A DNA stretch of 64,000 nt from Astropecten irregularis. Lineage: Eukaryota; Echinodermata; Asteroidea; Paxillosida; Astropectinidae. Of the stretch, positions 17,861 through 51,450 are shown in pieces (position 1 is the stretch's first letter; each line of letters opens with the position of its first letter). Both the position numbers and the translations under genes were made by a program. The stretch is taken from positions 9,830,798 through 9,894,797 of the forward strand of contig OZ020260.1 in assembly GCA_963971285.1 (NCBI GenBank), in the 5' to 3' direction. The notes under the pieces were generated by a model. That model was not told where the DNA came from. It did no database searches and saw nothing but the letters and a program-made list of their open reading frames with translations.

Positions 17861-19104
17861 TTTTATCTTAATTCACTTATCAATGGCTTAGAATTAATCA
17901 TTTAGTTTGAGGTTATTTGATGATCAAACATACATTGTATTATTCTTCAACCATTGTGCCTCAGATATCATACCGTATAATATCCCAAGTAATGTAATTT
18001 GTTTGTAATATAATAATATATAATGCAACAACCATTTTACTAATACTTAATAATAATACTATTAATTAAGTATAGTTCAACTGGATAACAAAATGAGAAA
18101 TTGTTTAGTTATTGTTGAGAATGCCTCATAAATACACCATTTATTGCAAGAATCTTGAAATATTTTCGTTCAATTTTGAATTCACCATCTGAAATATTAT
18201 TCAAGTCAACGGCAAAGGTAAAAACAAGAATCTGAGGGTGTCTGACCTCTTGATACTTATCAACTGATCACAGATTGTAATTTCTAGTTCTCCACTTTCT
18301 ACTTTGTACTTGTAAACTCCTCAACAAAAGTTTGGGATTTTTTTCAGACATGTATTTCTCATTTAAACACTCCTTTGAATACTGGTAGGTCTGAAAGAGA
18401 AAGTGCACAATTTCGATACATATATTCCGTTGAAAACTTTGTTTAGGATTACACAGTTTAGGAGGATTATGTTAAACATAATATGCTAAATTTGTTGAGT
18501 TTGCTTTGCCATTCTCTGCAGAACAATCATCTGTGTCACTAACAAAGTCAGGAAAACAAACAAACTCTACCATCCACCTTTAGCAGGCTTAATCAGGATT
18601 CATCTGATAATGTGACTTTCTACTACATGTTATATTCCAAGACCAGAATTCAAACCAAACATATTCCTCTGTTGATGGATCTTATAGAACTTTCGTTTGC
18701 AACGTCACAGCCCAAGTTTTTGCCATTCAAGATGCCGGAAACTGTCCAGACCCATAAAATCCGGGCATGGAAAAAAAAACACAATTTGAAAACAATTTGT
18801 ACACAACCTTTCAGAAACATTGAAAGATATTGCTAAATTGAAAAAACTCAAGCAATAATTGTATGCATTTTTAACAGCTATGGAAAGTTTGTTAAAATGT
18901 TGAATTTGGCCATGCCGTCTTTGAGAAGACAAAATTATTTGCAACATTCGGCCGCCCATGTCAACCAGCAGCAAATGTTTGTCAACAAAAGAAAGGTCTA
19001 TAGGATGTGGATTAGGGCTATTTGAGGAAACAAACCAGTACACAAATTGTAATACATTGTACATGTGGAATCTTCAAAATTTAACATGAAACTAAAAGAT
19101 ATTA
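17861..19104. other. Intron A, 3' part
   Basis: AT-rich, non-coding. Bases 18,500-18,700 match intron B 56,150-56,210 and 56,600-56,700 (GAACAATCATCTG, TGACTTTCT, CTGTTGA), interrupted in B by extra DNA. The last 45 bases (AATTTAACATGAAACTAAAAG onward) match the end of intron B closely. Small open frames here are not conserved. Confidence 0.6.
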
Positions 19105-19130
19105 CAATTTTTTTCTTACAGCAGCAGACG
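19105..19130 (+). other. 3' splice site of block 2 with triple NAGNAG
   Basis: A T-rich tract is followed by ACAG CAG CAG AC. Three AGs spaced by three bases (ending at 19121, 19124 and 19127) are each a possible acceptor, all in the same frame, so use of the second or third would remove one or two codons (Ala, or Ala-Ala/Asp at the junction). I use the first AG because it is directly after the tract and matches the CA start of blocks 3 and 4. Confidence 0.6.
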
Positions 19131-22100
19131 TGACAACAACTGCCCCAGGGACAACATCTGTGGCCGAGACAACTACAGCTAGACACACAACCACTGTGGC
19201 TGACACAACTACAGCTGGAGACACAACCACTGTGGCCCGGACAACTACAGCTGGAGATACAACCACTGTTGCTGAAACAACCACAGCTGGAGACACAACC
19301 ACTGTTGCTGACACAACTACAGCTGGAGACACAACCACAGTAGCTGAAACAACTACTGCTGAAGATACAACCACTGTTGCTGAAACAACCACAGCTGGAG
19401 ACACAACCACTGTTGCTGAAACAACCAAAGGTGGAGACACAACCACTGTAGCTGAAACAACTACTGCTGAAGACACAACCACTGTTGCTGAAACAACCAC
19501 AGCTGGAGACACAACAACAGTAGCTGACACAACCACAGCTGTTGACACAACCACTGTAGCTGAAACAACTATAGCTGCAGATACAACCACTGTAGCTGAA
19601 ACAACCACAGCTGGAGACACAACCACTGTGGCCGACACAACCACAGCTGGAGACACAACCACTGTTGCTGAAACAACCACAGCTGGAGACACAACAACAG
19701 TAGCTGACACAACTACAGCTGTTGACCCAACCACTGTAGCTGAAACAACTACATCTGGAGACACGACCACTGTTGCTGACACAACTACAGCTGGAGATAC
19801 AACCACTGTTGCTGAAACAACCACAGCTGGAGACACAACCACTGTTGCTGAAACAACCACAGCTGGAGACACAACCACTGTAGCTGAAACAACTACTGCT
19901 GAAGACACAACCACTGTTGCTGAAACAACCACAGCTGGAGACACAACCACTGTAGCTGAAACAACTACAGCTGGAGACACAACAACAGTAGGTGACACAA
20001 CCACAGCTGTTGACACAACCACTGTAGCTGAAACAACTACAGCTGGAGAGACAACCACTGTAGCTGAAACAACCACAGCTGTAGACACAACCACTGTTGC
20101 TGAAACAACCACAGCTGAAGACACAACAACAGTAGCTGGCACAACCACAGCTGTTGACACAACCACTGTAGCTGAAACAACTACAGCTGGAGATACAACC
20201 ACTGTAGCTGAAACAACCACAGCTGGAGACACAACCACTGTGGCCGACACAACCACAGCTGGAGACACAACCACTGTTGCTGAAACAACCACAGCTGGAG
20301 ACACAACAACAGTAGCTGACACAACTACAGCTATTGACAGAACCACTGTAGCTGAAACAACTACAGCTGGAGACACGACCACTGTTGCTGAAACAACTAC
20401 AGCTGTTGGCACAACCACTGTAGCTGAAACAACTACAGCTGGAGATACAACCACTGTTGCTGAAACAACTACAGCTGGAGATACAACCACTGTGGCCGAC
20501 ACAACCACAGCTGGAGACACAACCACTGTTGCTGAAACAACCACAGCTGGAGACACAACAACAGTAGCTGACACAACTACAGCTGTTGACACAACCACTG
20601 TAGCTGAAACAACTACATCTGGAGACACGACCACTGTTGCTGAAACAACTACAGCTGTTGACACAACCACTGTAGCTGAAACAACTACAGCTGGAGATAC
20701 AACCACTGTTGCTGACACAACTACAGCTGGAGATACAACCACTGTTGCTGGTACAACCACAGCTGGAGACACAACCACTGTTGCTGAAACAACCACAGCT
20801 GGAGACACAACCACTGTAGCTGAAACAACTACTGCTGAAGACACAACCACTGTTGCCGAAACAACCACAGCTGGAGACACAACCACTGTAGCTGAAACAA
20901 CTACAGCTGGAGACACAACAACAGTAGCTGACACAACCACAGCTGTTGACACAACCACTGTAGCTGAAACAACTACAGCTGGAGAGACAACCACTGTAGC
21001 TGAAACAACCACAGCTGGAGACACAACCACTGTTGCTGAAACAACTACAGCTGTTGACACAACCACTGTAGCTGAAACAACTACAGCTGGAGATACAACC
21101 ACTGTTGCTGACACAACTACAGCTGGAGATACAACCACTGTTGCTGAAACAACCACAGCTGGAGACACAACCACTGTTGCTGAAACAACCACAGCTGGAG
21201 ACACAACCACTGTAGCTGGAACAACTACTGCTGAAGACACAACCACTGTTGCCGAAACAACCACAGCTGGAGACACAACCACTGTAGCTGAAACAACTAC
21301 AGCTGGAGACACAACAACAGTAGCTGACACAACCACAGCTGTTGACACAACCACTGTAGCTGAAACAACTACAGCTGGAGAGACAACCACTGTAGCTGAA
21401 ACAACCACAGCTGGAGACACAACCACTGTTGCTGAAACAACTACAGCTGAAGACACAACAACAGTATCTGACACAACTACAGCTGTTGACACAACCACTG
21501 TAGCTGAAACAACTACAGCTGGAGATACAACCACTGTTGCTGACACAACTACAGCTGGAGATACAACCACTGTAGCTGAAACAACCACAGATGGAGACAC
21601 AACCACTGTAGCTGAAACAACTACTGCTGAAGACACAACCACTGTTGCTGAAACAACCACAGCTGGAGACACTACAACAGTAGCTGACACAACTACAGCT
21701 GTTGACACAACCACTGTAGCTGAAACAACTACAGCTGGAGACACAACAACAGTAGCTGGCACAACCACAGCTGTTGACACAACCACTGTAGCTGAAACAA
21801 CTACAGCTGGAGATACAACCACTGTAGCTGAAAGAACCACAGCTGGAGACACAACCACTGTGGCCGACACAACCACAGCTGGAGACACAACCACTGTTGC
21901 TGAAACAACCACAGCTGGAGACACAACAACAGTAGCTGACACAACTACAGCTGGAGATACAACCACTGTTGCTGAAACAACCACAGCTGGAGACACAACC
22001 ACTGTTGCTGAAACAACCACAGCTGGAGACACAACCACTGTAGCTGAAACAACTACAGCTGGAGACACAACAACAGTAGCTGACACCACCACAGCTGTTG

Positions 22101-25100
22101 ACACAACCACTGTAGCTGAAACAACTACAGCTGGAGAGACAACCACTGTGGCCGACACAACCACAGCTGGAGACACAACCACTGTTGCTGAAACAACCAC
22201 AGCTGGAGACACAACCACTGTAGCTGAAACAACCACAGCTGGAGACACAACCACTGTGGCCGACACAACCACAGCTGGAGACACAACCACTGTTGCTGAA
22301 ACAACCACAGCTGGAGACACAACAACAGTAGCTGACACAACTACAGCTATTGACAGAACCACTGTAGCTGAAACAACTACAGCTGGAGACACGACCACTG
22401 TTGCTGAAACAACTACAGCTGTTGGCACAACCACTGTAGCTGAAACAACTACAGCTGGAGATACAACCACTGTTGCTGAAACAACTACAGCTGGAGATAC
22501 AACCACTGTGGCCGACACAACCACAGCTGGAGAGACAACCACTGTTGCTGAAACAACCACAGCTGGAGACACAACAACAGTAGCTGACACAACTACACCT
22601 GTTGACACAACCACTGTAGCTGAAACAACTACATCTGGAGACACGACCACTGTTGCTGAAACAACTACAGCTGTTGACACAACCACTGTAGCTGAAACAA
22701 CTACAGCTGGAGATACAACCACTGTTGCTGACACAACTACAGCTGGAGATACAACCACTGTTGCTGAAACAACCACAGCTGGAGACACAACCACTGTTGC
22801 TGAAACAACCACAGCTGGAGACACAACCACTGTAGCTGAAACAACTACTGCTGAAGACACAACCACTGTTGCCGAAACAACCACAGCTGGAGACACAACC
22901 ACTGTAGCTGAAACAACTACAGCTGGAGAGACAACCACTGTAGCTGAAACAACCACAGCTGGAGACACAACCACTGTTGCTGAAACAACTACAGCTGTTG
23001 ACACAACCACTGTAGCTGAAACAACTACAGCTGGAGATACAACAACCACTGTTGCTGACACAACTACAGCTGGAGATACAACCACTGTTGCTGAAACAAC
23101 CACAGCTGGAGACACAACCACTGTTGCTGAAACAACCACAGCTGGAGACACAACCACTGTAGCTGAAACAACTACTGCTGAAGACACAACCACTGTTGCC
23201 GAAACAACCACAGCTGGAGACACAACCACTGTAGCTGAAACAACTACAGCTGGAGACACAACAACAGTAGCTGACACAACCACAGCTGTTGACACAACCA
23301 CTGTAGCTGAAACAACTACAGCTGGAGAGACAACCACTGTAGCTGAAACAACTACTGCTGAAGACACAACCACTGTTGCTGAAACAACCACAGCTGGAGA
23401 CACTACAACAGTAGCTGACACAACTACAGCTGTTGACACAACCACTGTAGCTGAAACAACTACAGCTGGAGACACAACAACAGTAGCTGACACAACCACA
23501 GCTGTTGACACAACCACTGTAGCTGAAACAACTACAGCTGGAGATACAACCACTGTAGCTGAAACAACCACAGCTGGAGACACAACCACTGTGGCCGACA
23601 CAACCACAGCTGGAGACACAACCACTGTTGCTGAAACAACCACAGCTGGAGACACAACCACTGTAGCTGAAACAACCACAGCTGGAGACACAACCACTGT
23701 GGCCGACACAACCACAGCTGGAGACACAACCACTGTTGCTGAAACAGCCACAGCTGGAGACACAACCACTGTAGCTGAAACAACTACAGCTGGAGATACA
23801 ACCACTGTTGCTGAAACAACTACAGCTGGAGATACAACCACTGTGGCCGACACAACCACAGCTGGAGACACAACCACTGTTGCTGAAACAACCACAGCTG
23901 GAGACACAACAACAGTAGCTGACACAACTACAGCTGTTGACACAACCACTGTAGCTGAAACAACTACATCTGGAGACACGACCACTGTTGCTGACACAAC
24001 TACAGCTGGAGATACAACCACTGTTGCTGAAACAACCACAGCTGGAGACACAACCACTGTTGCTGAAACAACCACAGCTGGAGACACAACCACTGTAGCT
24101 GAAACAACTACTGCTGAAGACACAACCACTGTTGCTGAAACAACCACAGCTGGAGACACAACCACTGTAGCTGAAACAACTACAGCTGGAGACACAACAA
24201 CTGTAGCTGACACAACCACAGCTGTTGACACAACCACTGTAGCTGAAACAACTACAGCTGGAGGGACAACCACTGTAGCTGAAACAACCACAGCTGGAGA
24301 CACAACCACTGTTGCTGAAACAACCACAGCTGAAGACACAACAACAGTAGCTGGCACAACCACAGCTGTTGACACAACCACTGTAGCTGAAACAACTACA
24401 GCTGGAGATACAACCACTGTAGCTGAAACAACCACAGCTGGAGACACAACCACTGTGGCCGACACAACCACAGCTGGAGACACAACCACTGTTGCTGAAA
24501 CAACCACAGCTGGAGACACAACAACAGTAGCTGACACAACTACAGCTGTTGACAGAACCACTGTAGCTGAAACAACTACAGCTGGAGCCACCACTGTTGC
24601 TGAAACAACTACAGCTGTTGGCACAACCACTGTAGCTGTAACAACTACAGCTGGAGATACAACCACTGTTGCTGAAACAACTACAGCTGGAGATACAACC
24701 ACTGTGGCCGACACAACCACAGCTGGAGACACAACCACTGTTGCTGAAACAACCACAGCTGGAGACACAACAACAGTAGCTGACACAACTACAGCTGTTG
24801 ACACAACCACTGTAGCTGAAACAACTACATCTAGAGACACGACCACTGTTGCTGAAACAACTACAGCTGTTGACACAACCACTGTAGCTGAAACAACTAC
24901 AGCTGGAGATACAACCACTGTTGCTGACACAACTACAGCTGGAGATACAACCACTGTTGCTGAAACAACCACAGCTGGAGACACAACCACTGTTGCTGAA
25001 ACAACCACAGCTGGAGACACAACCACTGTAGCTGAAACAACTACTGCTGAAGGCACAACCACTGTTGCCGAAACAACCACAGCTGGAGACACAACCACTG

Positions 25101-28100
25101 TAGCTGAAACAACTACAGCTGGAGACACAACAACAGTAGCTGACACAACCACAGCTGTTGACACAACCACTGTAGCTGAAACAACTACAGCTGGAGAGAC
25201 AACCACTCTAGCTGAAACAACCACAGCTGGAGACACAACCACTGTTGCTGAAACAACCACAGCTGAAGACACAACAACAGTATCCGACACAACTACAGCT
25301 GTTGGCACAACCACTGTAGCTGAAACAACTACAGCTGGAGATACAACCACTGTTGCTGAAACAACTACAGCTGGAGATACAACCACTGTGGCCGACACAA
25401 CCACAGCTGGAGACACAACCACTGTTGCTGAAACAACCACAGCTGGAGACACAACAACAGTAGCTGACACAACTACAGCTGTTGACACAACCACTGTAGC
25501 TGAAACAACTACATCTAGAGACACAACCACTGTTGCTGAAACAACCACAGCTGGAGACACAACAACAGTAGCTGACACAACTACAGCTGGAGATACAACC
25601 ACTGTTGCTGAAACAACCACAGCTGTAGACACAACCACTGTTGCTGAAACAACCACAGCTGGAGACACAACCACTGTAGCTGAAACAACTACAGCTGGAG
25701 ACACAACAACAGTAGCTGACACCACCACAGCTGTTGACACAACCACTGTAGCTGAAACAACTACAGCTGGAGAGACAACCACTGTGGCCGACACAACCAC
25801 AGCTGGAGACACAACCACTGTTGCTGAAACAACCACAGCTGGAGACACAACCACTGTAGCTGAAACAACCACAGCTGGAGACACAACCACTGTGGCCGAC
25901 ACAACCACAGCTGGAGACACAACCACTGTTGCTGAAACAACCACAGCTGGAGACACAACAACAGTAGCTGACACAACTACAGCTGTTGACAGAACCACTG
26001 TAGCTGAAACAACTACAGCTGGAGACACGACCACTGTTGCTGAAACAACTACAGTTGTTGGCACAACCACTGTAGCTGAAACAACTACAGCTGGAGATAC
26101 AACCACTGTTGCTGAAACAACTACAGCTGGAGATACAACCACTGTGGCCGACACAACCACAGCTGGAGACACAACCACTGTTGCTGAAACAACCACAGCT
26201 GGAGACACAACAACAGTAGCTGACACAACTACAGCTGTTGACACAACCACTGTAGCTGAAACAACTACATCTGGAGACACGACCACTGTTGCTGACACAA
26301 CTACAGCTGGAGATACAACCACTGTTGCTGAAACAACCACAGCTGGAGACACAACCACTGTTGCTGAAACAACCACAGCTGGAGACACAACCACTGTAGC
26401 TGAAACAACTACTGCTGAAGACACAACCACTGTTGCTGAAACAACCACAGCTGGAGACACAACCACTGTAGCTGAAACAACTACAGCTGGAGACACAACA
26501 ACAGTAGCTGACACAACCACAGCTGTTGACACAACCACTGTAGCTGAAACAACTACAGCTGGAGAGACAACCACTGTAGCTGAAACAACCACAGCTGGAG
26601 ACACAACCACTGTTGCTGAAACAACCACAGCTGAAGACACAACAACAGTAGCTGGCACAACCACAGCTGTTGACACAACCACTGTAGCTGAAACAACTAC
26701 AGCTGGAGATACAACCACTGTAGCTGAAACAACCACAGCTGGAGACACAACCACTGTGGCCGACACAACCACAGCTGGAGACACAACCACTGTTGCTGAA
26801 ACAACCACAGCTGGAGACACAACCACATATGCTGAAACAACCACAGCTGGAGACACAACAACAGTAGCTGACACAACTACAGCTGTTGACAGAACCACTG
26901 TAGCTGAAACAACTACAGCTGGAGACACGACCACTGTTGCTGAAACAACTACAGCTGTTGGCACAACCACTGTAGCTGTAACAACTACAGCTGGAGATAC
27001 AACCACTGTTGCTGAAACAACTACAGCTGGAGATACAACCACTGTGGCCGACACAACCACAGCTGGAGACACAACCACTGTAGCTGAAACAACTACATCT
27101 AGAGACACAACCACTGTTGCTGAAACAACTACAGCTGTTGACACAACCACTGTAGCTGAAACAACTACAGCTGGAGATACAACCACTGTTGCTGACACAA
27201 CTACAGCTGGAGATACAACCACTGTTGCTGAAACAACCACAGCTGGAGACACAACCACTGTTGCTGAAACAACCACAGCTGGAGACACAACCACTGTAGC
27301 TGAAACAACTACTGCTGAAGGCACAACCACTGTTGCCGAAACAACCACAGCTGGAGACACAACCACTGTAGCTGAAACAACTACAGCTGGAGACACAACA
27401 ACAGTAGCTGACACAACCACAGCTGTTGACACAACCACTGTAGCTGAAACAACTACAGCTGGAGAGACAACCACTGTAGCTGAAACAACCACAGCTGGAG
27501 ACACAACCACTGTTGCTGAAACAACCACAGCTGAAGACACAACAACAGTATCCGACACAACTACAGCTGTTGGCACAACCACTGTAGCTGAAACAACTAC
27601 AGCTGGAGATACAACCACTGTTGCTGAAACAACTACAGCTGGAGATACAACCACTGTGGCCGACACAACCACAGCTGGAGACACAACCACTGTTGCTGAA
27701 ACAACCACAGCTGGAGACACAACAACAGTAGCTGACACAACTACAGCTGTTGACACAACCACTGTAGCTGAAACAACTACATCTAGAGACACGACCACTG
27801 TTGCTGAAACAACTACAGCTGTTGACACAACCACTGTAGCTGAAACAACTGCAGCTGGAGATACAACCACTGTTGCTGACACAACTACAGCTGGAGATAC
27901 AACCACTGTTGCTGAAACAACCACAGCTGGAGACACAACCACTGTTGCTGAAACAACCACAGCTGGAGACACAACCACTGTAGCTGAAACAACTACTGCT
28001 GAAGGCACAACCACTGTTGCCGAAACAACCACAGCTGGAGAAACAACCACTGTAGCTGAAACAACTACAGCTGGAGACACAACAACAGTAGCTGACACAA

Positions 28101-31100
28101 CCACAGCTGGAGATACAACCACTGTAGCTGAAACAACTACAGCTGGAGAGACAACCACTGTAGCTGAAACAACCACAGCTGGAGACACAACCACTGTGGC
28201 CGACACAACCACAGCTGGAGACACAACCACTGTTGCTGAAACCACCACAGCTGGAGACACAACAACAGTAGCTGACACAACTACAGCTGGAGATACAACC
28301 ACTGTTGCTGAAACAACCACAGCTGGAGACACAACCACTGTTGCTGAAACAACCACAGCTGGAGACACAACCACTGTAGCTGAAACAACTACAGCTGGAG
28401 ACACAACCACTGTAGCTGACACCACCACAGCTGTTGACACAACCACTGTAGCTGAAACAACTACAGCTGGAGAGACAACCACTGTGGCCGACACAACCAC
28501 AGCTGGAGACACAACCACTGTTGCTGAAACAACCACAGCTGGAGACACAACCACTGTAGCTGGCACAACCACAGCAGTTGACACAACCACTGTAGCTGAA
28601 ACAACTACAGCTGGAGATACAACCACTGTAGCTGAAACAACCACAGCTGGAGAGACAACCACTGTAGCTGAAACAACCACAGCTGGAGACACAACCACTG
28701 TTGCTGAAACAACCACAGCTGAAGACACAACAACAGTATCTGACACAACTACAGCTGTTGACACAACCACTGTAGCTGAAACAACTACAGCTGGAGATAC
28801 AACCACTGTTGCTGACACAACTACAGCTGGAGATACAACCACTGTAGCTGAAACAACCACAGCTGGAGATACAACCACTGTACCTGAAACAACCACAGCT
28901 GGAGACACAACCACTGTGGCCGACACAACCACAGCTGGAGACACAACCACTGTTGCTGAAACAACCACAGCTGGAGACACAACAACAGTAGCTGACACAA
29001 CTACAGCTGGAGATACAACCACTGTTGCTGAAACAACCACAGCTGGAGACACAACCACTGTTGCTGAAACAACCACAGCTGGAGACACAACCACTGTAGC
29101 TGAAACAACTACAGCTGGAGACACAACCACTGTAGCTGACACCACCACAGCTGTTGACACAACCACTGTAGCTGAAACAACTACAGCTGGAGAGACAACC
29201 ACTGTGGCCGACACAACCACAGCTGGAGACACAACCACTGTTGCTGAAACAACCACAGCTGGAGACACAACCACTGTAGCTGAAACAACCACAGCTGGAG
29301 ACACAACCACTGTGGCCGACACAACCACAGCTGGAGACACAACCACTGTGGCCGACACAACCACAGCTGGAGACACAACCACTGTTGCTGAAACAACCAC
29401 AGCTGGAGACACAACAACAGTAGCTGACACAACTACAGCTGTTGACAGAACCACTGTAGCTGAAACAACTACAGCTGGAGACACGACCACTGTTGCTGAA
29501 ACAACTACAGCTGTTGGCACAACCACTGTAGCTGAAACAACTACAGCTGGAGATACAACCACTGTTGCTGAAACAACTACAGCTGGAGATACAACCACTG
29601 TGGCCGACACAACCACAGCTGGAGACACAACCACTGTTGCTGAAACAACCACAGCTGGAGACACAACAACAGTAGCTGACACAACTACAGCTGTTGACAC
29701 AACCACTGTAGCTGAAACAACTACATCTGGAGACACGACCACTGTTGCTGACACAACTACAGCTTTAGATATAACCACTGTTGCTGAAACAACCACAGCT
29801 GGAGACACAACCACTGTTGCTGAAACAACCACAGCTGGAGACACAACCACTGTAGCTGAAACAACTACTGCTGAAGACACAACCACTGTTGCTCAAACAA
29901 CCACAGCTGGAGACACAACCACTGTAGCTGAAACAACTACAGCTGGAGACACAACAACAGTAGCTGACACAACCACAGCTGTTGACACAACCACTGTAGC
30001 TGAAACAACTACAGCTGGAGAGACAACCACTGTAGCTGAAACAACCACAGCTGGAGACACAACCACTGTTGCTGAAACAACCACAGCTGAAGACACAACA
30101 ACAGTAGCTGGCACAACCACAGCTGTTGACACAACCACTGTAGCTGAAACAACTACAGCTGGAGATACAACCACTGTAGCTGAAACAACCACAGCTGGAG
30201 ACACAACCACTGTGGCCGACACAACCACAGCTGGAGACACAACCACTGTTGCTGAAACAACCACAGCTGGAGACACAACCACATATGCTGAAACAACCAC
30301 AGCTGGAGACACAACAACAGTAGCTGACACAACTACAGCTGTTGACAGAACCACTGTAGCTGAAACAACTACAGCTGGAGACACGACCACTGTTGCTGAA
30401 ACAACTACAGCTGTTGGCACAACCACTGTTGCTCAAACAACCACAGCTGGAGACACAACCACTGTAGCTGAAACAACTACAGCTGGAGACACAACAACAG
30501 TAGCTGACACAACCACAGCTGTTGACACAACCACTGTAGCTGAAACAACTACAGCTGGAGAGACAACCACTGTAGCTGAAACAACCACAGCTGGAGACAC
30601 AACCACTGTTGCTGAAACAACCACAGCTGAAGACACAACAACAGTAGCTGGCACAACCACAGCTGTTGACACAACCACTGTAGCTGAAACAACTACAGCT
30701 GGAGATACAACCACTGTAGCTGAAACAACCACAGCTGGAGACACAACCACTGTGGCCGACACAACCACAGCTGGAGACACAACCACTGTTGCTGAAACAA
30801 CCACAGCTGGAGACACAACCACATATGCTGAAACAACCACAGCTGGAGACACAACAACAGTAGCTGACACAACTACAGCTGTTGACAGAACCACTGTAGC
30901 TGAAACAACTACAGCTGGAGACACGACCACTGTTGCTGAAAGAACTACAGCTGTTGGCACAACCACTGTAGCTGTAACAACTACAGCTGGAGATACAACC
31001 ACTGTTGCTGAAACAACTACAGCTGGAGATACAACCACTGTGGCCGACACAACCACAGCTGGAGACACAACCACTGTTGCTGAAACAACCACAGCTGGAG

Positions 31101-37100: not shown

Positions 37101-40100
37101 CCACAGCTGGAGACACAACCACTGTGGCCGACACAACCACAGCTGGAGACACAACCACTGTTGCTGAAACAACCACAGCTGGAGACACAACAACAGTAGC
37201 TGACACAACTACAGCTGTTGACACAACCACTGTAGCTGAAACAACTACAGCTAGAGATACAACCACTGTTGCTGAAACAACTACAGCTGGAGGTACAACC
37301 ACTGTGGCCGACACAACCACAGCTGGAGACACAACCACTGTTGCTGAAACAACCACAGCTGGAGACACAACCACTGTTGCTGAAACAACCACAGCTGGAG
37401 ACACAACCACTGTAGCTGAAACAACTACAGCTGGAGACACAACAACAGTAGCTGACACAACCACAGCTGTTGACACAACCACTGTAGCTGAAACAACTAC
37501 AGCTGGAGATACAACCACTGTAGCTGAAACAACCACAGCTGGAGAGACAACCACTGTAGCTGAAACAACCACAGCTGGAGACACAACCACTGTTGCTGAA
37601 ACAACTACAGCTGGAGATACAACCACTGTAGCTGAAACAACCACAGCTGGAGACACAACCACTGTTGCTGAAACAACCACAGATGGAGAGACAACCACTG
37701 TAGCTGAAACAACCACAGCTGGAGACACAACCACTGTTGCTGAAACAACCACAGCTGGAGAGACAACCACTGTAGCTGAAACAACCACAGCTGGAGACAC
37801 AACCACTGTAGCTGATACAACTACAGCTGGAGATACAACCACTGTTGCTGACACAACTACAGCTGGAGATACAACCACTGTTGCTGAAACAACCACAGCT
37901 GGAGATACAACCACTGTTGCTGACACAACCACAGCTGTTGACACAACCACTGTAGCTGAAACAACTACAGCTGGAGATACAACCACTGTAGCTGAAACAA
38001 CCACAGCTGGAGAGACAACCACTGTAGCTGAAACAACCACAGCTGGAGACACAACCACTGTTGCTGAAACAACTACAGCTGGAGATACAACCACTGTAGC
38101 TGAAACAACCACAGCTGGAGACACAACCACTGTTGCTGAAACAACCACAGATGGAGAGACAACCACTGTAGCTGAAACAACCACAGCTGGAGACACAACA
38201 ACAGTAGCTGACACAACTACAGCTGTTGACACAACCACTGTAGCTGAAACAACTACAGCTGGAGATACAACCACTGTTGCTGACACAACTACAGCTGGAG
38301 ATACAACCACTGTAGCTGAAACAACCACAGCTGGAGACACAACCACTGTTGCTGAAACAACCACAGATGGAGACACAACCACTGTAGCTGACACAACTAC
38401 AGCTGTTGACACAACCACTGTAGCTGAAACAACTACAGCTGGAGACACAACAACAGTAGCTGGCACAACCACAGCTGTTGACACAACCACTGTAGCTGAA
38501 ACAACTACAGCTGGAGATACAACCACTGTAGCTGAAAGAACCACAGCTGGAGACACAACCACTGTGGCCGACACAACCACAGCTGGAGACACAACCACTG
38601 TTGCTGAAACAACCACAGCTGGAGACACAACAACAGTAGCTGACACAACTACAGCTGTTGACACAACCACTGTAGCTGAAACAACTACAGCTGGAGACAC
38701 GACCACTGTTGCTGAAACAACTACAGCTGTTGGCACAACCACTGTAGCTGAAACAACTACAGCTGGAGATACAACCACTGTTGCTGAAACAACTACAGCT
38801 GGAGGTACAACCACTGTGGCCGACACAACCACAGCTGGAGACACAACCACTGTTGCTGAAACAACCACAGCTGGAGACACAACAACAGTAGCTGACACAA
38901 CTACAGCTGTTGACACAACCACTGTAGCTGAAACAACTACATCTGGTGACACGACCACTGTTGCTGAAACAACTACAGCTGTTGACACAACCACTGTAGC
39001 TGATACAACTACAGCTGGAGATACAACCACTGTTGCTGACACAACTACAGCTGGAGATACAACCACTGTTGCTGAAACAACCACAGCTGGAGACACAACC
39101 ACTGTTGCTGAAACAACCACAGCTGGAGACACAACCACTGTAGCTGAAACAACCACAGCTGGAGACACAACAACAGTAGCTGACACAACCACAGCTGTTG
39201 ACACAACCACTGTAGCTGAAACAACTACAGCTGGAGAGACAACCACTGTAGCTGAAACAACCACAGCTGGAGACACAACCACTGTTGCTGAAACAACCAC
39301 AGCTGAAGACACAACAACAGTATCTGACACAACTACAGCTGGAGATACAACCACTGTAGCTGAAACAACCACAGCTGGAGACACAACCACTGTTGCTGAA
39401 ACAACCACAGATGGAGACACAACCACTGTAGCTGAAACAACTACTGCTGAAGACACAACCACTGTTGCTGAAACAACCACAGCTGGAGAGACTACAACAG
39501 TAGCTGACACAACTACAGCTGTTGACACAACCACTGTAGCTGAAACAACTACAGCTGGAGACACAACAACAGTAGCTGGCACAACCACAGCTGTTGACAC
39601 AACCACTGTAGCTGAAACAACTACAGCTGGAGATACAACCACTGTAGCTGAAACAACCACAGCTGGAGACACAACCACTGTGGCCGACACAACCACAGCT
39701 GGAGACACAACCACTGTTGCTGAAACAACCACAGCTGGAGACACAACAACAGTAACTGACACAACTACAGCTGGAGATACAACCACTGTTGCTGAAACAA
39801 CCACAGCTGGAGACACAACCACTGTTGCTGAAACAACCTCAGCTGGAGACACAACCACTGTAGCTGAAACAACTACAGCTGGAGACACAACAACAGTAGC
39901 TGACACCACCACAGCTGTTGACACAACCACTGTAGCTGAAACAACTACTGCTGGAGAGACAACCACTGTGGCCGACACAACCACAGCTGGAGACACAACC
40001 ACTGTTGCTGAAACAACCACAGCTGGAGACACAACCACTGTAGCTGAAACAACCACAGCTGGAGACACAACCACTGTGGCCGACACAACCACAGCTGGAG

Positions 40101-43100
40101 ACACAACCACTGTTGCTGAAACAACCACAGCTGGAGACACAACAACAGTAGCTGACACAACTACAGCTGTTGACAGAACCACTGTAGCTGAAACAACTAC
40201 AGCTGGAGACACGACCACTGTTGCTGAAACAACTACAGCTGTTGGCACAACCACTGTAGCTGAAACAACTACAGCTGGAGATACAACCACTGTTGCTGAA
40301 ACAACTACAGCTGGAGATACAACCACTGTGGCCGACACAACCACAGCTGGAGACACAACCACTGTTGCTGAAACAACCACAGCTGGAGACACAACAACAG
40401 TAGCTGACACAACTACAGCTGTTGACACAACCACTGTAGCTGAAACAACTACATCTGGAGACACGACCACTGTTGCTGACACAACTACAGCTGGAGATAC
40501 AACCACTGTTGCTGAAACAACCACAGCTGGAGACACAACCACTGTTGCTGAAACAACCACAGCTGGAGACACAACCACTGTAGCTGAAACAACTACATCT
40601 GGTGACACGACCACTGTTGCTGAAACAACTACAGCTGTTGACACAACCACTGTAGCTGATACAACTACAGCTGGAGATACAACCACTGTTGCTGACACAA
40701 CTACAGCTGGAGACACAACCACTGTTGCTGAAACAACCACAGCTGAAGACACAACAACAGTATCTGACACAACTACAGCTGGAGATACAACCACTGTAGC
40801 TGAAACAACCACAGCTGGAGACACAACCACTGTTGCTGAAACAACCACAGATGGAGACACAACCACTGTAGCTGAAACAACCACAGCTGGAGACACAACC
40901 ACTGTTGCTGAAACAACCACAGATGGAGAGACAACCACTGTAGCTGAAACAACCACAGCTGGAGACACAACAACAGTAGCTGACACAACTACAGCTGTTG
41001 ACACAACCACTGTAGCTGAAACAACTACAGCTGGAGATACAACCACTGTTGCTGACACAACTACAGCTGGAGATACAACCACTGTAGCTGAAACAACCAC
41101 AGCTGGAGACACAACCACTGTTGCTGAAACAACCACAGATGGAGACACAACCACTGTTGCTGAAACAACCACAGATGGAGACACAACCACTGTAGCTGAA
41201 ACAACTACTGCTGAAGACACAACCACTGTTGCTGAAACAACCACAGCTGGAGACACTACAACAGTAGCTGACACAACTACAGCTGTTGACACAACCACTG
41301 TAGCTGAAACAACTACAGCTGGAGACACAACAACAGTAGCTGGCACAACCACAGCTGTTGACACAACCACTGTAGCTGAAACAACTACAGCTGGAGATAC
41401 AACCACTGTAGCTGAAAGAACCACAGCTGGAGACACAACCACTGTGGCCGACACAACCACAGCTGGAGACACAACCACTGTTGCTGAAACAACCACAGCT
41501 GGAGACACAACAACAGTAGCTGACACAACTACAGCTGTTGACACAACCACTGTAGCTGAAACAACTACAGCTGGAGACACGACCACTGTTGCTGAAACAA
41601 CTACAGCTGTTGGCACAACCACTGTAGCTGAAACAACTACAGCTGGAGATACAACCACTGTTGCTGAAACAACTACAGCTGGAGGTACAACCACTGTGGC
41701 CGACACAACCACAGCTGGAGACACAACCACTGTTGCTGAAACAACCACAGCTGGAGACACAACAACAGTAGCTGACACAACTACAGCTGTTGACACAACC
41801 ACTGTAGCTGAAACAACTACATCTGGTGACACGACCACTGTTGCTGAAACAACTACAGCTGTTGACACAACCACTGTAGCTGATACAACTACAGCTGGAG
41901 ATACAACCACTGTTGCTGACACAACTACAGCTGGAGATACAACCACTGTTGCTGAAACAACCACAGCTGGAGACACAACCACTGTTGCTGAAACAACCAC
42001 AGCTGGAGACACAACCACTGTAGCTGAAACAACCACAGCTGGAGACACAACAACAGTAGCTGACACAACCACAGCTGTTGACACAACCACTGTAGCTGAA
42101 ACAACTACAGCTGGAGATACAACCACTGTTGCTGACACAACTACAGCTGGAGATACAACCACTGTTGCTGAAACAACCACAGCTGGAGACACAACCACTG
42201 TTGCTGAAACAACCACAGCTGGAGACACAACCACTGCAGCTGAAACAACTACTGCTGAAGACACAACCACTGTTGCCGAAACAACCACAGCTGGAGACAC
42301 AACCACTGTTGCTGAAACAACTACAGCTGGAGACACAACAACAGTAGCTGACACAACCACAGCTGTTGACACAACCACTGTAGCTGAAACAACTACAGCT
42401 GGAGAGACAACCACTGTAGCTGAAACAACCACAGCTGGAGACACAACCACTGTTGCTGAAACAACCACAGCTGAAGACACAACAACAGTATCTGACACAA
42501 CTACAGCTGGAGATACAACCACTGTAGCTGAAACAACCACAGCTGGAGACACAACCACTGTTGCTGAAACAACCACAGATGGAGACACAACCACTGTAGC
42601 TGAAACAACTACTGCTGAAGACACAACCACTGTTGCTGAAACAACCACAGCTGGAGACACTACAACAGTAGCTGACACAACTACAGCTGTTGACACAACC
42701 ACTGTAGCTGAAACAACTACAGCTGGAGACACAACAACAGTAGCTGGCACAACCACAGCTGTTGACACAACCACTGTAGCTGAAACAACTACAGCTGGAG
42801 ATACAACCACTGTAGCTGAAACAACCACAGCTGGAGACACAACCACTGTGGCCGACACAACCACAGCTGGAGACACAACCACTGTTGCTGAAACAACCAC
42901 AGCTGGAGACACAACAACAGTAGCTGACACAACTACAGCTGGAGATACAACCACTGTTGCTGAAACAACCACAGCTGGAGACACAACCACTGTTGCTGAA
43001 ACAACCTCAGCTGGAGACACAACCACTGTAGCTGAAACAACTACAGCTGGAGACACAACCACTGTAGCTGAAACAACTACAGCTGGAGACACGACCACTG

Positions 43101-46100
43101 TTGCTGAAACAACTACAGCTGTTGGCACAACCACTGTAGCTGAAACAACTACAGCTGGAGATACAACCACTGTTGCTGAAACAACTACAGCTGGAGGTAC
43201 AACCACTGTGGCCGACACAACCACAGCTGGAGACACAACCACTGTTGCTGAAACAACCACAGCTGGAGACACAACAACAGTAGCTGACACAACTACAGCT
43301 GTTGACACAACCACTGTAGCTGAAACAACTACATCTGGTGACACGACCACTGTTGCTGAAACAACTACAGCTGTTGACACAACCACTGTAGCTGATACAA
43401 CTACAGCTGGAGATACAACCACTGTTGCTGACACAACTACAGCTGGAGATACAACCACTGTTGCTGAAACAACCACAGCTGGAGACACAACCACTGTTGC
43501 TGAAACAACCACAGCTGGAGACACAACCACTGTAGCTGAAACAACCACAGCTGGAGACACAACAACAGTAGCTGACACAACCACAGCTGTTGACACAACC
43601 ACTGTAGCTGAAACAACTACAGCTGGAGATACAACCACTGTTGCTGACACAACTACAGCTGGAGATACAACCACTGTTGCTGAAACAACCACAGCTGGAG
43701 ACACAACCACTGTTGCTGAAACAACCACAGCTGGAGACACAACCACTGCAGCTGAAACAACTACTGCTGAAGACACAACCACTGTTGCCGAAACAACCAC
43801 AGCTGGAGACACAACCACTGTTGCTGAAACAACTACAGCTGGAGACACAACAACAGTAGCTGACACAACCACAGCTGTTGACACAACCACTGTAGCTGAA
43901 ACAACTACAGATGGAGAGACAACCACTGTAGCTGAAACAACCACAGCTGGAGACACAACCACTGTTGCTGAAACAACCACAGCTGAAGACACAACAACAG
44001 TATCTGACACAACTACAGCTGGAGATACAACCACTGTAGCTGAAACAACCACAGCTGGAGACACAACCACTGTTGCTGAAACAACCACAGATGGAGACAC
44101 AACCACTGTAGCTGAAACAACTACTGCTGAAGACACAACCACTGTTGCTGAAACAACCACAGCTGGAGACACTACAACAGTAGCTGACACAACTACAGCT
44201 GTTGACACAACCACTGTAGCTGAAACAACTACAGCTGGAGACACAACAACAGTAGCTGGCACAACCACAGCTGTTGACACAACCACTGTAGCTGAAACAA
44301 CTACAGCTGGAGATACAACCACTGTAGCTGAAACAACCACAGCTGGAGACACAACCACTGTGGCCGACACAACCACAGCTGGAGACACAACCACTGTTGC
44401 TGAAACAACCACAGCTGGAGACACAACAACAGTAGCTGACACAACTACAGCTGGAGATACAACCACTGTTGCTGAAACAACCACAGCTGGAGACACAACC
44501 ACTGTTGCTGAAACAACCTCAGCTGGAGACACAACCACTGTAGCTGAAACAACTACAGCTGGAGACACAACAACAGTAGCTGACACCACCACAGCTGTTG
44601 ACCCAACCACTGTAGCTGAAACAACTACTGCTGGAGAGACAACCACTGTGGCCGACACAACCACAGCTGGAGACACAACCACTGTTGCTGAAACAACCAC
44701 AGCTGGAGACACAACCACTGTAGCTGAAACAACCACAGCTGGAGACACAACCACTGTGGCCGACACAACCACAGCTGGAGACACAACCACTGTTGCTGAA
44801 ACAACCACAGCTGGAGACACAACAACAGTAGCTGACACAACTACAGCTGTTGACAGAACCACTGTAGCTGAAACAACTACAGCTGGAGACACGACCACTG
44901 TTGCTGAAACAACTACAGCTGTTGGCACAACCACTGTAGCTGAAACAACTACAGCTGGAGATACAACCACTGTTGCTGAAACAACTACAGCTGGAGATAC
45001 AACCACTGTGGCCGACACAACCACAGCTGGAGACACAACCACTGTTGCTGAAACAACCACAGCTGGAGACACAACAACAGTAGCTGACACAACTACAGCT
45101 GTTGACACAACCACTGTAGCTGAAACAACTACATCTGGAGACACGACCACTGTTGCTGACACAACTACAGCTGGAGATACAACCACTGTTGCTGAAACAA
45201 CCACAGCTGGAGACACAACCACTGTTGCTGAAACAACCACAGCTGGAGACACAACCACTGTAGCTGAAACAACTACATCTGGTGACACGACCACTGTTGC
45301 TGAAACAACTACAGCTGTTGACACAACCACTGTAGCTGATACAACTACAGCTGGAGATACAACCACTGTTGCTGACACAACTACAGCTGGAGACACAACC
45401 ACTGTTGCTGAAACAACCACAGCTGAAGACACAACAACAGTATCTGACACAACTACAGCTGGAGATACAACCACTGTAGCTGAAACAACCACAGCTGGAG
45501 ACACAACCACTGTTGCTGAAACAACCACAGATGGAGACACAACCACTGTAGCTGAAACAACTACTGCTGAAGACACAACCACTGTTGCTGAAACAACCAC
45601 AGCTGGAGACACTACAACAGTAGCTGACACAACTACAGCTGTTGACACAACCACTGTAGCTGAAACAACTACAGCTGGAGACACAACAACAGTAGCTGGC
45701 ACAACCACAGCTGTTGACACAACCACTGTAGCTGAAACAACTACAGCTGGAGATACAACCACTGTAGCTGAAACAACCACAGCTGGAGACACAACCACTG
45801 TGGCCGACACAACCACAGCTGGAGACACTACAACAGTAGCTGACACAACTACAGCTGGAGACACAACCACTGTAGCTGAAACAACTACAGCTGGAGAGAC
45901 AACCACTGTAGCTGAAACAACCACAGCTGGAGACACAACCACTGTTGCTGAAACAACCACAGCTGAAGACACAACAACAGTATCTGACACAACTACAGCT
46001 GGAGATACAACCACTGTAGCTGAAACAACCACAGCTGGAGACACAACCACTGTTGCTGAAACAACCACAGCTGGAGACACAACCACTGTAGCTGAAACAA

Positions 46101-49100
46101 CTACTGCTGAAGACACAACCACTGTTGCTGAAACAACCACAGCTGGAGACACTACAACAGTAGCTGACACAACTACAGCTGTTGACACAACCACTGTAGC
46201 TGAAACAACTACAGCTGGAGACACAACAACAGTAGCTGGCACAACCACAGCTGTTGACACAACCACTGTAGCTGAAACAACTACAGCTGGAGATACAACC
46301 ACTGTAGCTGAAACAACCACAGCTGGAGACACAACCACTGTGGCCGACACAACCACAGCTGGAGACACAACCACTGTTGCTGAAACAACCACAGCTGGAG
46401 ACACAACAACAGTAGCTGAAACAACTACAGCTGTTGACACAACCACTGTAGCTGAAACAACTACAGCTGGAGACACGACCACTGTTGCTGAAACAACTAC
46501 AGCTGTTGGCACAACCACTGTAGCTGAAACAACTACAGCTGGAGATACAACCACTGTTGCTGAAACAACTACAGCTGGAGATACAACCACTGTTTCTGAA
46601 ACAACTACTGCTGAAGACACAACCACTGTTGCTGAAACAACCACAGCTGGAGACACTACAACAGTAGCTGACACAACTACAGCTGTTGACACAACCACTG
46701 TAGCTGAAACAACTACAGCTGGAGACCCAACAACAGTAGCTGGCACAACCACAGCTGTTGACACAACCACTGTAGCTGAAACAACTACAGCTGGAGATAC
46801 AACCACTGTAGCTGAAACAACCACAGCTGGAGACACAACCACTGTGGCCGACACAACCACAGCTGGAGACACAACCACTGTTGCTGAAACAACCACAGCT
46901 GGAGACACAACAACAGTAGCTGACACAACTACAGCTGTTGACACAACCACTGTAGCTGAAACAACTACAGCTGGAGATACAACCACTGTTGCTGAAACAA
47001 CTACAGCTGGAGATACAACCACTGTGGCCGACACAACCACAGCTGGAGACACAAAAACAGTAGCTGGCACAACTACAGCTGTTGACACAACCACTGTAGC
47101 TGAAACAACTACATCTGGTGACACGACCACTGTTGCTGAAACAACTACAGCTGTTGACACAACCACTGTAGCTGAAACAACTACAGCTGGAGATACAACC
47201 ACTGTTGCTGACACAACTACAGCTGGAGATACAACCACTGTTGCTGAAACAACCACAGCTGAAGACACAACCACTGTTGCTGAAACAACCACAGCTGGAG
47301 ACACAACCACTGTAGCTGAAACAACTACAGCTGGAGACACAACAACAGTAGCTGACTCAACCACAGCTGTTGACACAACCACTGTAGCTGAAACAACTAC
47401 AGCTGGAGATACAACCACTGTAGCTGAAACAACCACAGCTGGAGAGACAACCACTGTAGCTGAAACAACCACAGCTGGAGACACAACCACTGTTGCTGAA
47501 ACAGCTACAGCTGGAGATACAACCACTGTTGCTGACACAACTACAGCTGGAGATACAATCACTGTAGCTGAAACAACCACAGCTGGAGACACAACCACTG
47601 TTGCTGAAACAACCACGGATGGAGACACAACCACTGTAGCTGAAACAACTGCTGCTGAAGACACAACCATTGTTGCTGAAACAACCACAGCTGGAGACAC
47701 TACAAAAGTAGCTGACACAACTACAGCTGTTGACACAACCACTGTAGCTGAAACAACTACAGCTGGAGACACAACAACAGTAGCTGGCACAACCACAGCT
47801 GTTGACACAACCACTGTAGCTGAAACAACTACAGCTGGAGATACAACCACTGTTGCTGAAACAACCACAGCTGGAGACACAACCACTGTGGCCGACACAA
47901 CCACAGCTGGAGACACAACCACTGTTGCTGAAACAACCACAGCTGGAGACACAACCACTGTTGCTGAAACAACCACAGCTGGAGACACAACCACTGTAGC
48001 TGAAACAACTACAGCTGGAGACACAACAACAGTAGCTGACACAACCACAGCTGTTGACACAACCACTGTAGCTGAAACAACTACAGCTGGAGTGACAACC
48101 ACTGTAGCTGAAACAACCACAGCTGGAGACACAACCACTGTTGCTGAAACAACCACAGCTGGAGACACAACAACAGTAGCTTACACAACTACAGCTGTTG
48201 ACACAACCACTGTAGCTGAAACAACTACAGCTGGAGACACGACCACTGTTGCTGAAACAACTACAGCTGTTGGCACAACCACTGTAGCTGAAACAACTAC
48301 AGCTGGAGATACAACCACTGTTGCTGAAACAACTACAGCTGGAGATACAACCACTGTGGCCGACACAACCACAGCTGGAGACACAACCACTGTTGCTGAA
48401 ACAACCACAGCTGGAGACACAACAACAGTAGCTGACACAACTACAGCTGTTGACACAACCACTGTAGCTGAAACAACTACATCTGGTGACACGACCACTG
48501 TTGCTGAAACAACTACAGCTGTTGACACAACCACTGTAGCTGAAACAACTACAGCTGGAGATACAACCACTGTTGCTGACACAACTACAGCTGGAGATAC
48601 AACCACTGTTGCTGAAACAACCAGAGCTGAAGACACAACCACTGTTGCTGAAACAACCACAGCTGGAGACACAACCACTGTAGCTGAAACAACTACAGCT
48701 GGAGACACAACAACAGTAGCTGACACAACCACAGCTGTTTACACAACCACTGTAGCTGAAACAACTACATCTGGTGACACGACCACTGTTGCTGAAACAA
48801 CTACAGCTGTTGACACAACCACTGTAGCTGAAACAACTACAGCTGGAGATACAACCACTGTTGCTGACACAACTACAGCTGGAGATACAACCACTGTTGC
48901 TGAAACAACCACAGCTGAAGACACAACCACTGTTGCTGAAACAACCACAGCTGGAGACACAACCACTGTAGCTGAAACAACTACTGCTGAAGACACAACC
49001 ACTGTTGCTGAAACAACCACAGCTGGAGACACTACAACAGTAGCTGACACAACTACAGCTGGAGAGACAACCACTGTTGCTGAAACAACTACAGCTGGAG

Positions 49101-51077
49101 ACACAACCACTGTAGCTGAAACAACTACAGCTGGAGATACAACCACTGTTGCTGACACAACTACAGCTGGAGATACAACCACTGTTGCTGACACAACTAC
49201 AGCTGGAGATACAACCACTGTTGCTGAAACAACCACAGCCGAAGACACAACCACTGTTGCTGAAACAACTACATCTGGTGACACGACCACTGTTGCTGAA
49301 ACAACTACAGCTGTTGACACAACCACTGTAGCTGAAACAACTACAGCTGGAGATACAACCACTGTTGCTGACACAACTACAGCTGGAGATACAACCACTG
49401 TTGCTGAAACAACCACAGCTGAAGACACAACCACTGTTGCTGAAACAACCACAGCTGGAGACACAACCACTGTAGCTGAAACAACTACAGCTGGAGACAC
49501 GACAACAGTAGCTGACACAACCACAGCTGTTGACACAACCACTGTAGCTGAAACAACTACAGCTGGAGATACAACCACTGTAGCTGAAACAACCACAGCT
49601 GGAGAGACAACCACTGTAGCTGAAACAACCACAGCTGGAGACACAACCACTGTTGCTGAAACAACTACAGCTGGAGATACAACCACTGTTGCTGACACAA
49701 CTACAGCTGGAGATACAATCACTGTAGCTGAAACAACCACAGCTGGAGACACAACCACTGTTGCTGAAACAACCACAGATGGAGACACAACCACTGTTGC
49801 TGAAACAACTGCTGCTGAAGACACAACCATTGTTGCTGAAACAACCACAGCTGGAGACACTACAACAGTAGCTGACACAACTACAGCTGTTGACACAACC
49901 ACTGTAGCTGAAACAACTACAGCTGGAGACACAACAACAGTAGCTGGCACAACCACAGCTGTTGACACAACCACTGTAGCTGAAACAACTACAGCTGGAG
50001 ATACAACCACTGTAGCTGAAACAACCACAGCTGGAGACACAACCACTGTGGCCGACACAACCACAGCTGGAGACACAACCACTGTTGCTGAAACAACTAC
50101 ATCTGGAGACACGACCACTGTTGCTGAAACAACTACAGCTGTTGACACAACCACTGTAGCTGAAACAATCACAGCTGGAGATACAACCACTGTTGCTGAC
50201 ACAACTACAGCTGGAGATACAACCACTGTTGCTGAAACAACCACAGCTGGAGACACAACCACTGTTGCTGAAACAACCACAGCTGGAGACACAACCACTG
50301 TAGCTGAAACAACTACAGCTGGAGACACAACAACAGTAGCTGACACAACCACAGCTGTTGACACAACCACTGTAGCTGAAACAACTACAGCTGGAGATAC
50401 AACCACTGTAGCTGAAACAACCACAGCTGGAGAGACAACCACTGTAGCTGAAACAACCACAGCTGGAGACACAACCACTGTTGCTGAAACAACTACAGCT
50501 GGAGATACAACCACTGTTGCTGACACAACTACAGCTGGAGATATAACCACTGTAGCTGAAACAACCACAGCTGGAGACACAACCACTGTTGCTGAAACAA
50601 CCACAGATGGAGACACAACCACTGTAGCTGAAACAACTACTGCTGAAGACACAACCACTGTTGCTGAAACAACCACAGCTGGAGACACTACAACAGTAGC
50701 TGACACAACTACAGCTGGAGAGACAACCACTGTTGCTGAAACAACTACAGCTGGAGACACAACCACTGTAGCTGAAACAACTACAGCTGGAGATACAACC
50801 ACTGTTGCTGTCACAACCACAGCTGGAGACACAACTACCGTTGCTGAAACAACCACAGCTGGAGACACTACAACAGTTGCTGACACAACTACAGCTGGAG
50901 ACACAACCACTGTTGCTGAAACAACCACAGCTGGAGACACAACAACAGTAGGTGACACAACTACAGCTGTTGACACAACCACTGTAGCTGAAACAACTAC
51001 AGGTGGAGACACAACAACAGTAGTTGAGACAACTAGTGTGGAAGATACAACGTCTGCTACAAGTGGCAGCTCATTAG
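19122..51077 (+). CDS. Giant Thr-rich mucin-like repeat protein, exon block 2 (complete 31,956-bp exon)
   Basis: One uninterrupted exon of 10,652 codons, phase 1 at both ends. It opens with a short non-consensus leader (ADVTTTAPGTTSVAE), continues as about 880 copies of the 12-residue unit, and closes with VVETTSVEDTTSATSGSSLG before a GTAAG donor. Compared with block 1, the first hexapeptide is far more variable: TTTAGD, TTTAVD, TTTAED, TTTAGE, TTTSGD, TTTAVG, TTTDGD. The two blocks have therefore been homogenised separately. The only non-unit indels I noticed are multiples of three (an extra ACA near 23041, a lost codon near 24588). Composition is about half Thr with regular Asp/Glu, so thousands of potential O-glycan sites on an extended chain. 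Alternatives are non-coding satellite DNA or an unspliced transcript; frame retention, matched splice sites and synonymous variation argue against these. Confidence 0.85.
28580..35208 (+). repeat. Dispersed direct duplication, offset about 4.8 kb
   Basis: The unit order at about 28,580-30,420 recurs at about 33,440-35,208. The offset is 4,860 bp at first, then 4,824 and 4,788 after single 36-bp units are gained or lost. Shared rare markers include GCT TTA GAT ATA (29762 and 34586) and GCT CAA (29891 and 34715). Confidence 0.75.
29881..30960 (+). repeat. Direct tandem duplication, 2 x 540 bp
   Basis: Bases 29881-30420 and 30421-30960 (15 units each) are almost identical. They share the rare Gln codon marker GCT CAA and the ACA TAT GCT marker. 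One difference I see is ACA versus AGA (Thr/Arg) near 30401/30941. This is one of the youngest events in block 2. Confidence 0.85.
32520..35933 (+). repeat. Direct duplication, offset 2,448 bp
   Basis: About 965 bp at 32,520-33,485 recur at 34,968-35,933 (68 units apart). They share rare variants: ACT AGA GCT near 32,818/35,266, GCT TTC ACA near 32,915/35,363, and CCT GTA CCT near 33,016/35,464. The second copy adjoins the end of the 4.8-kb duplication, so the events are layered. Confidence 0.75.
38101..42110 (+). repeat. Direct duplication, offset 2,772-2,880 bp
   Basis: Unit order at about 38,101-39,230 recurs at about 40,873-42,110. The offset is 2,772 bp at first and 2,880 bp after three extra 36-bp units in the second copy. 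Shared markers include GCT GAA AGA ACC at 38531 and 41411 and GCT GGA GGT ACA at about 38,801 and 41,681. Confidence 0.72.
39120..45540 (+). repeat. Direct duplication, offset 4,680 bp (130 units)
   Basis: Unit order at about 39,120-40,860 recurs at about 43,800-45,540, with occasional single-base differences (for example ACT versus GCT near 39,755/44,435, and ACA versus CCA near 39,923/44,603). Confidence 0.75.
41541..44564 (+). repeat. Tandem duplication, 2 x 1,512 bp (42 units)
   Basis: The stretch 41,541-43,052 is followed directly by a copy at 43,053-44,564. The rare GCA GCT marker (Ala for Val) near 42,236 and 43,748 is shared. A small difference is GCT versus GAT before GGA GAG near 42,399/43,911. 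Confidence 0.78.
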
Positions 51078-51250
51078 GTAAGATTTTTTGTATTCATTTT
51101 GGCAGCCTTTTTCGTGATACTGTGTATCCAAATCATTTCTTTGAATCTGATTTGTGTGTATGTGATTATCTAAGGTTTGTTAGTCACAAATTAGGTTTTC
51201 CTGTAAAATCTTTATACCTGACAAGATTTAACTGCACAGTACTCCATGAT

Positions 51251-51450
51251 TTACCAAATGTTTGTGTTTGTTTTAGTGTGGTAAATTTTCAATTAATATA
51301 CCTGAAGGGCAGCATTGAGCATGTAGCTTACAATCCATTAAAGATTATTAGTATCATGTCAAGATAAAATGTTTGTGGAAGCTGCAAAGACTGCACAAGA
51401 AACCCTTCAGTTTTGTGTTTCATATTACTGTACTCACTATCTGCACTTTT
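51251..51450. repeat. Conserved paralogous intron block, copy B
   Basis: The intron B copy of the 200-bp block described at 15,581 in intron A; differences are scattered single bases and a small insertion (GTTTTAGTGTGGT region). Confidence 0.85.

Follow-up and report, generated by a model that had tools for sequence, protein, structure and literature searches.

A phase-symmetric threonine-rich repeat exon of about 32 kb, and a series of larger ones, in a predicted mucin-type gene of Astropecten irregularis

PKZILLA-1 (45,212 aa) and titin (about 36,000 aa) reach their extreme lengths with modular folded domains, the echinoderm protein hyalin carries many HYR repeats, and the repetitive centre of a Balbiani ring gene is one exon. 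In the available portion of PMC12300183, PKZILLA is mentioned without a size. According to the accessible part of a study of human mucin genes, MUC12 proteins range from 4,677 to 23,080 aa, a size range of 55,233 bp, and in some humans MUC12 contains, to the knowledge of its authors, the largest single coding exon; alleles of the MUC4 variable number tandem repeat reach 27,843 bp (PMC13345508, medRxiv 2026). Long Balbiani ring genes measure about 40 kb each, with four introns and a repetitive centre of about 35 kb (PMC4192438, in part). Giant cassette exons rich in A are repressed by SAFB proteins; the mammalian coding exons of this class have, with one exception, more than 33% A, and GAAGAA is a purine motif of SAFB and SR proteins (PMC10901741, in part). 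Here we describe a giant exon, named E2, from the echinoderm Astropecten irregularis (assembly GCA_963971285.1; 475.7 Mb and 168 contigs searched). E2 lies within a stretch of 64,000 nt, called the window below, which corresponds to positions 9830798-9894797 of contig OZ020260.1 (C24; other contigs are numbered likewise), and the features reported for it are on the + strand. On C24 we examined the window and 260 kb of flank, plus short stretches further downstream.

The initial annotation of the window described an open frame of 10,652 codons running from an acceptor to a donor, with phase 1 on both sides, and this description holds. The length of E2, 31,956 nt, equals 10,652 x 3, and the frame offset by two bases contains zero stops, the other two sense frames having 469 and 991. 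The upstream border reads ...TTTTTTTCTTACAG/CAGCAGACG on the acceptor side and the downstream border AGCTCATTAG/GTAAGATTT on the donor side; E2 opens with the last two bases of one split codon and closes with the first base of another, hence phase 1/1. A tandem CAGCAG forms the acceptor, so that the start may move by 3 or 6 nt. E2 is built of approximately 888 copies, 885 of them complete, of the 12-residue repeat TTTAGDTTTVAE, encoded by a 36-bp unit, with two in-frame phase jumps and 126 distinct unit types along the array. The composition is extreme: 49.5% Thr, 1,779 Asp and Glu vs 38 Lys and Arg (a net charge of about -1,740) and no Cys. The main 36-mer occurs 184 times in the genome, on the forward strand only, and 184 occurrences were also counted in the examined stretch of the locus. 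The window gave 0 matches to Rfam families and 0 predicted tRNAs. Judged from its sequence, E2 is one exceptionally large, phase-symmetric internal coding exon.

The openness of E2 is in itself weak evidence for coding, since the consensus unit is stop-free in three of the six frames and only 9 and 5 stops occur in two antisense frames of the exon, properties that would also be those of a non-coding satellite left open by its composition. The departures from the consensus (n=2,475) were therefore compared with 200 simulations in which the same changes were placed irrespective of codon position. In E2, 81% of the departures fall at third codon positions vs 44% in the simulations (maximum 46%), stops number 0 vs a mean of 60 (minimum 43 in the 200 simulations), and amino-acid changes number 740 vs 1,426. 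No frameshift was detected across the approximately 888 units, and the differences among the 126 unit types are distributed 46/102/325 over the three codon positions. The significance of the simulation is overstated, because repeat copies are not independent. The 21 site variants that occur a single time are spread over the codon positions without bias (8/6/7), which favors a satellite and counts against coding, although such absence of bias is expected for young mutations. On the other side, in addition to the third-position bias of the common variants, stand the in-phase splice sites at both ends of E2 and the in-phase leader and HYR exons upstream (Table 1). Based on the third-position bias, the zero stops and the lack of any detected frameshift, we take the frame of E2 to be coding, and a satellite appears highly improbable.

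The locus contains six giant exons of 32 to 81 kb (E1, E2, E4, E5, E8 and E11), of which E2 is the smallest. Thr amounts to 48-49.5% in E1, E2, E4, E5 and E8, with Ser and Pro each below 1%, and every modelled exon after the first, through E11, has a length divisible by 3 and phase 1/1. A single HYR exon was found by motif in the 62 kb upstream, and a single one on C24 among 150 scored of 808 candidates. Downstream, the EGF_CA profile matched two neighbouring exons with 78.4 bits, and five places on the + strand at C24:10.174-10.190 Mb (among 150 scored of 1,899 candidates). These EGF exons may belong to the same gene as the giant exons.

Table 1. Features of the giant-exon locus. Positions without prefix refer to the window; those with the prefix C24 refer to the contig.
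Feature	Position	Strand	Description
Signal-peptide-like exon	ATG at C24:9808348	+	hydrophobic leader MSSIKSVFLLMGFILPLLNAQ, by eye; joins in phase
HYR exon	C24:9811544-9811786	+	PF02494 72.7 bits at C24:9811540-9811782; second scoring 70.7 bits; phase 1/1
E1, whole	C24:9812449-9845532	+	33,084 nt, 11,028 codons
E1, 3' part	1..14735	+	open frame, 12-aa repeat, donor TTTG/gtaagat, phase 1
Intron E1-E2	14736..19121	+	4,386 nt, GT..AG; pieces related to the window's other two introns
E2, giant exon	19122..51077	+	31,956 nt, phase 1/1, ~888 repeat units
Intron E2-E3	51078..56850	+	5,773 nt
E3, short repeat exon	56851..57633 = C24:9887648-9888430	+	783 nt, phase 1/1, acceptor 11.6, donor 9.2
Intron E3-E4	57634..61536	+	3,903 nt
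E4, 5' part	61537..64000	+	giant repeat exon reaching beyond the window
E4, whole	C24:9892334-9927631	+	35,298 nt
E5	C24:9939129 (or 9939141)-9999194	+	60,066 nt
Two Thr/Ser exons between E5 and E8	C24	+	189 and 177 nt
E8	C24:10003127-10069570	+	66,444 nt
Second Thr/Ser exon pair between E8 and E11	C24	+	177-189 nt; near-duplicates of the pair before E8
E11	C24:10074294-10155110	+	80,817 nt, phase 1/1
Calcium-binding EGF exons	C24 from 10173683 on	+	EGF_CA profile matches

Arrays of this kind raise the question of an assembly artefact, with array lengths inflated or collapsed. Near-identical blocks do exist: the longest repeated block, at up to 10 mismatches, measures 4.2 kb in E1, 2.8 kb in E4, 3.95 kb in E5 (taken two bases off in this search, which hardly affects block length) and 3.8 kb in E8. 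In E2 the longest block is 1.8 kb at the same threshold and 958 bp when exact, short for long reads. Repeated blocks of such length are shorter than usual long reads. Besides one run of 200 N upstream (C24:9803425-9803624), there is no other non-ACGT letter in the examined stretch from there to C24:10074797. These observations make an artefact quite unlikely.

The interior of E2 offers few competitors to its own splice sites. Scored with approximate matrices, the acceptor and donor of E2 reach 11.7 and 8.9, and inside the exon, away from the borders, the best acceptor and donor score 4.6 and 6.5. E2 contains 2 acceptors scoring at least 4, whereas dinucleotide shuffles average 123 (n=20) and versions with random synonymous codons 102 (n=20), and the introns hold 6.7 of them per kb; donors scoring at least 5 number 14, vs 108 in shuffles and 181 with random synonymous codons. 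The longest pyrimidine run is 5 in E2 and 21 in the introns. AATAAA and ATTAAA are both absent (0 and 0) from the 226.8 kb of the five fully read giant exons, shuffled versions of which contain about 11 and 4 in sum, and they occur 19 and 16 times in 25.6 kb of four introns. Splicing across the giant exons is probably feasible, since pyrimidine tracts and poly(A) signals are scarce in the repeat, which leaves the real sites with few competitors. The earlier remark that E2 challenges exon definition is a fair one, but it holds for giant exons in general. A separate observation concerns the short exon E3, where 9/15 glycines are encoded by GGT and five donor-like GGTGAC words occur, the giant exons using mostly GGA (642/713 in E2); selection against decoys is possibly relaxed in a short exon.

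When 13 exons are joined, the last one cut at 504 nt, they give 229,174 nt and 76,391 codons with 0 stops, equivalent to 7.4 MDa; counting lengths only, the whole of E11 raises this to 309,487 nt and 103,162 codons. By motif search, neither HYR nor EGF motifs occur in the 12 introns up to E11, whose open frames do not exceed 155 aa. E2, its coding constraint, the order and phases of the exons, the domains and the scarcity of decoy acceptors in E2 can all be read in the DNA itself, and from them we consider it likely that E2 is an internal symmetric coding exon of a very large mucin-type echinoderm gene. More tentatively, we propose that one mRNA with more than 300 kb of coding sequence could carry the six giant exons, up to 80.8 kb, and specify a single polypeptide of 103,000 residues or more (about 10 MDa without its sugars), which would be the longest protein, and contain the largest coding exon, described, with a place in the mucus or body surface of an echinoderm. 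If one mRNA carries them all, the predicted product of about 103,160 codons would be more than twice as long as the largest protein known to us.

Several points weigh against a single transcript of this scale, in which the joint entry of the giant exons is something we infer. E8 shows a weaker depletion of acceptors than E2 (55 scoring at least 4, vs 189 in shuffled and 198 in synonymous versions; 21 scoring at least 6, vs 39 in shuffles), and GGTGAG words occur 10 times in E5 and 4 times in E8; cryptic splicing is therefore less excluded in E5 and E8 than in E2. Because one unit is repeated throughout, the depletion of decoys and poly(A) signals amounts to few independent observations. E11 is known from both ends and from 19 interior samples, 2,310 of its 80,817 nt, although all 19 (between C24:10082000 and 10155089) are Thr-rich, stop-free and in frame, and between E11 and the EGF exons the sequence is known from samples only. 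Neither a 3' end nor a membrane anchor was found in the stretches read, and a genome-wide search for SEA domains gave 0 matches, with 28 candidates scored and no positive control. Finally, the join between E4 and E5 combines a weak donor (5.0) with a weak acceptor (1.8), so that a second gene could begin at E5.

This last point leads to the alternative of two or more genes, split between E4 and E5 or with a separate gene for the EGF exons. The E4-E5 intron, of 11,497 nt, is the longest one read, and the border families of E1-E4 and of E5, E8 and E11 differ; a split at this place would leave 33,809 codons in one part and 69,353 or more in the other. However, this intron lacks HYR and EGF motifs and its open frames do not exceed 103 aa, signal peptides not having been searched for there, and we regard a division into several genes as unlikely. 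The main rival is alternative inclusion, since any giant exon could be skipped without a frameshift: the giant exons would act as symmetric cassettes, one or few per transcript, giving mucins of several lengths. Apart from the symmetry of all modelled exons after the first, the exon borders and introns look mutually duplicated, in agreement with such cassettes, and the five fully read giant exons have 35-37% A, vs 30-32% in four introns, which places them above the 33% of the SAFB class. A SAFB-like factor might then hold back the A-rich giant exons in most tissues. The purine-rich motif of that class speaks otherwise: GAAGAA is absent from E1, E2, E4 and E5 (14.4 in shuffles of E2) and reduced in E8 (15 vs 58 in shuffles). 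Repression by SAFB was thus kept as a mechanism only within alternative inclusion, which overall we hold to be a real but tentative possibility. Both of these alternatives dispute only the combination of exons, and they overlap with the proposal of a giant mucin gene.

Regarding the origin of the locus, related pieces recur among the window's three introns, with 976 aligned bases at 73% identity in the longest and 70-81% in the other same-orientation pieces above 300 bases (the end of intron 51078..56850 was taken one base short in this comparison). Therefore, exon-intron units were probably duplicated. The starts of E8 and E11 are nearly identical in sequence, and a 49-base word taken from the second Thr/Ser exon has exactly matching copies at two places in the genome, both in the locus (distant copies were not searched for). 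We propose that the arrays would have expanded through unequal exchange involving both the 36-bp unit and blocks of several kilobases, and that phase-1 symmetry would have allowed the duplication of whole exon-intron units with the frame intact. The most likely interpretation of the locus is a huge acidic threonine-rich mucin, presumably grown by repeat amplification plus symmetric-exon duplication. Its composition (49.5% Thr and the charge of E2) and its domains suggest O-glycosylation and a role in mucus or a surface brush; the product may be a strongly acidic, heavily O-glycosylated brush, secreted or tethered, whose arrays lack cysteine.

The same introns contain other repeats. Fold-back stretches of about 330-560 bases, with 67-81% identity, are present in all three (14822-15383, 54473-54905 and 61163-61491) and are like inverted-repeat transposons. 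A nearly identical 37-base unit is tandemly duplicated in two of them (51985-52058 and 59197-59270).

The several giant exons in series are of more interest than E2 alone. If they form a single transcription unit, the limits for the size of proteins and exons shift upwards, and the locus becomes a natural test of how splice sites pair over 30-80 kb of exon that contains few decoys; with the exons used singly, this would still be a gene of duplicated giant cassettes. The locus is also a candidate for a main structural mucin of an echinoderm. Its sequence predicts that the exons contain neither introns nor poly(A) sites and that skipping leaves the frame unchanged.

Other observations were made in the same genome. 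Upstream of the locus, an open frame at C24:9757834-9758517 ends in EYDKDEL, a C-terminus resembling that of the ER chaperone BiP. HYR exons are densely clustered at C9:26.09-26.81 Mb and C19:17.88-17.97 Mb, where many have identical scores, and these clusters are perhaps very long hyalin-like genes, and EGF_CA exons form a regular array with a period of about 11 kb at C24:1.217-1.285 Mb. On a contig of 16,335 bp, COX1 has ten TGA within its frame; compared with the best solved COX1, a mammalian one, AAA aligned to Asn at 5/5 sites, and AGA, which occurs seven times, stood opposite Ser twice and otherwise opposite Asn, Ala or Gly, but nowhere opposite Arg. This codon use fits the echinoderm code; flatworms share AAA as Asn, their COX1 being far more divergent. 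Two further COX1 matches were a stop-free one at C131:32162-33484, on what is perhaps a bacterial contaminant contig, and one with 7 TGA at C25:9951047-9952018, which resembles a nuclear insertion of mitochondrial DNA.

Among the top entries of the open-access literature listings that we examined, no prior description of this locus appeared. E2 had been suggested to be possibly among the largest internal coding exons known, by comparison with the long exons of human MUC16 and titin (of the order of 17-22 kb), but these are old yardsticks: long alleles of MUC12 are larger, and so are the other five giant exons of the locus. With MUC12 and MUC4, whose extreme alleles were resolved by long reads (PMC13345508, in part), E2 shares the plan of a single large exon of in-frame tandem repeats, here with 48-49.5% Thr and a 36-bp unit. 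In contrast to them, six exons above 30 kb follow in series with a HYR exon on the N-terminal side, and the 12-residue repeat is acidic with hardly any proline. Since the limit for the sampled MUC12 exons is 69.2 kb (3 x 23,080), E11, with 80.8 kb, would exceed them. The Balbiani ring genes of Chironomus likewise hold a giant repeat region within a spliced gene, in another animal and with a different repeat chemistry. A phase 1/1 HYR exon in a genome rich in HYR exons recalls hyalin and its relatives; here, however, one HYR exon was found in place of many, and the bulk is a mucin-like array. With PKZILLA-1 and titin the locus would share extreme length, attained by a simple repeat and not by modular folded domains. 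In summary, E2 is ordinary in kind, a mucin-type repeat exon and no record alone, and it is the surrounding gene that is extraordinary in scale.

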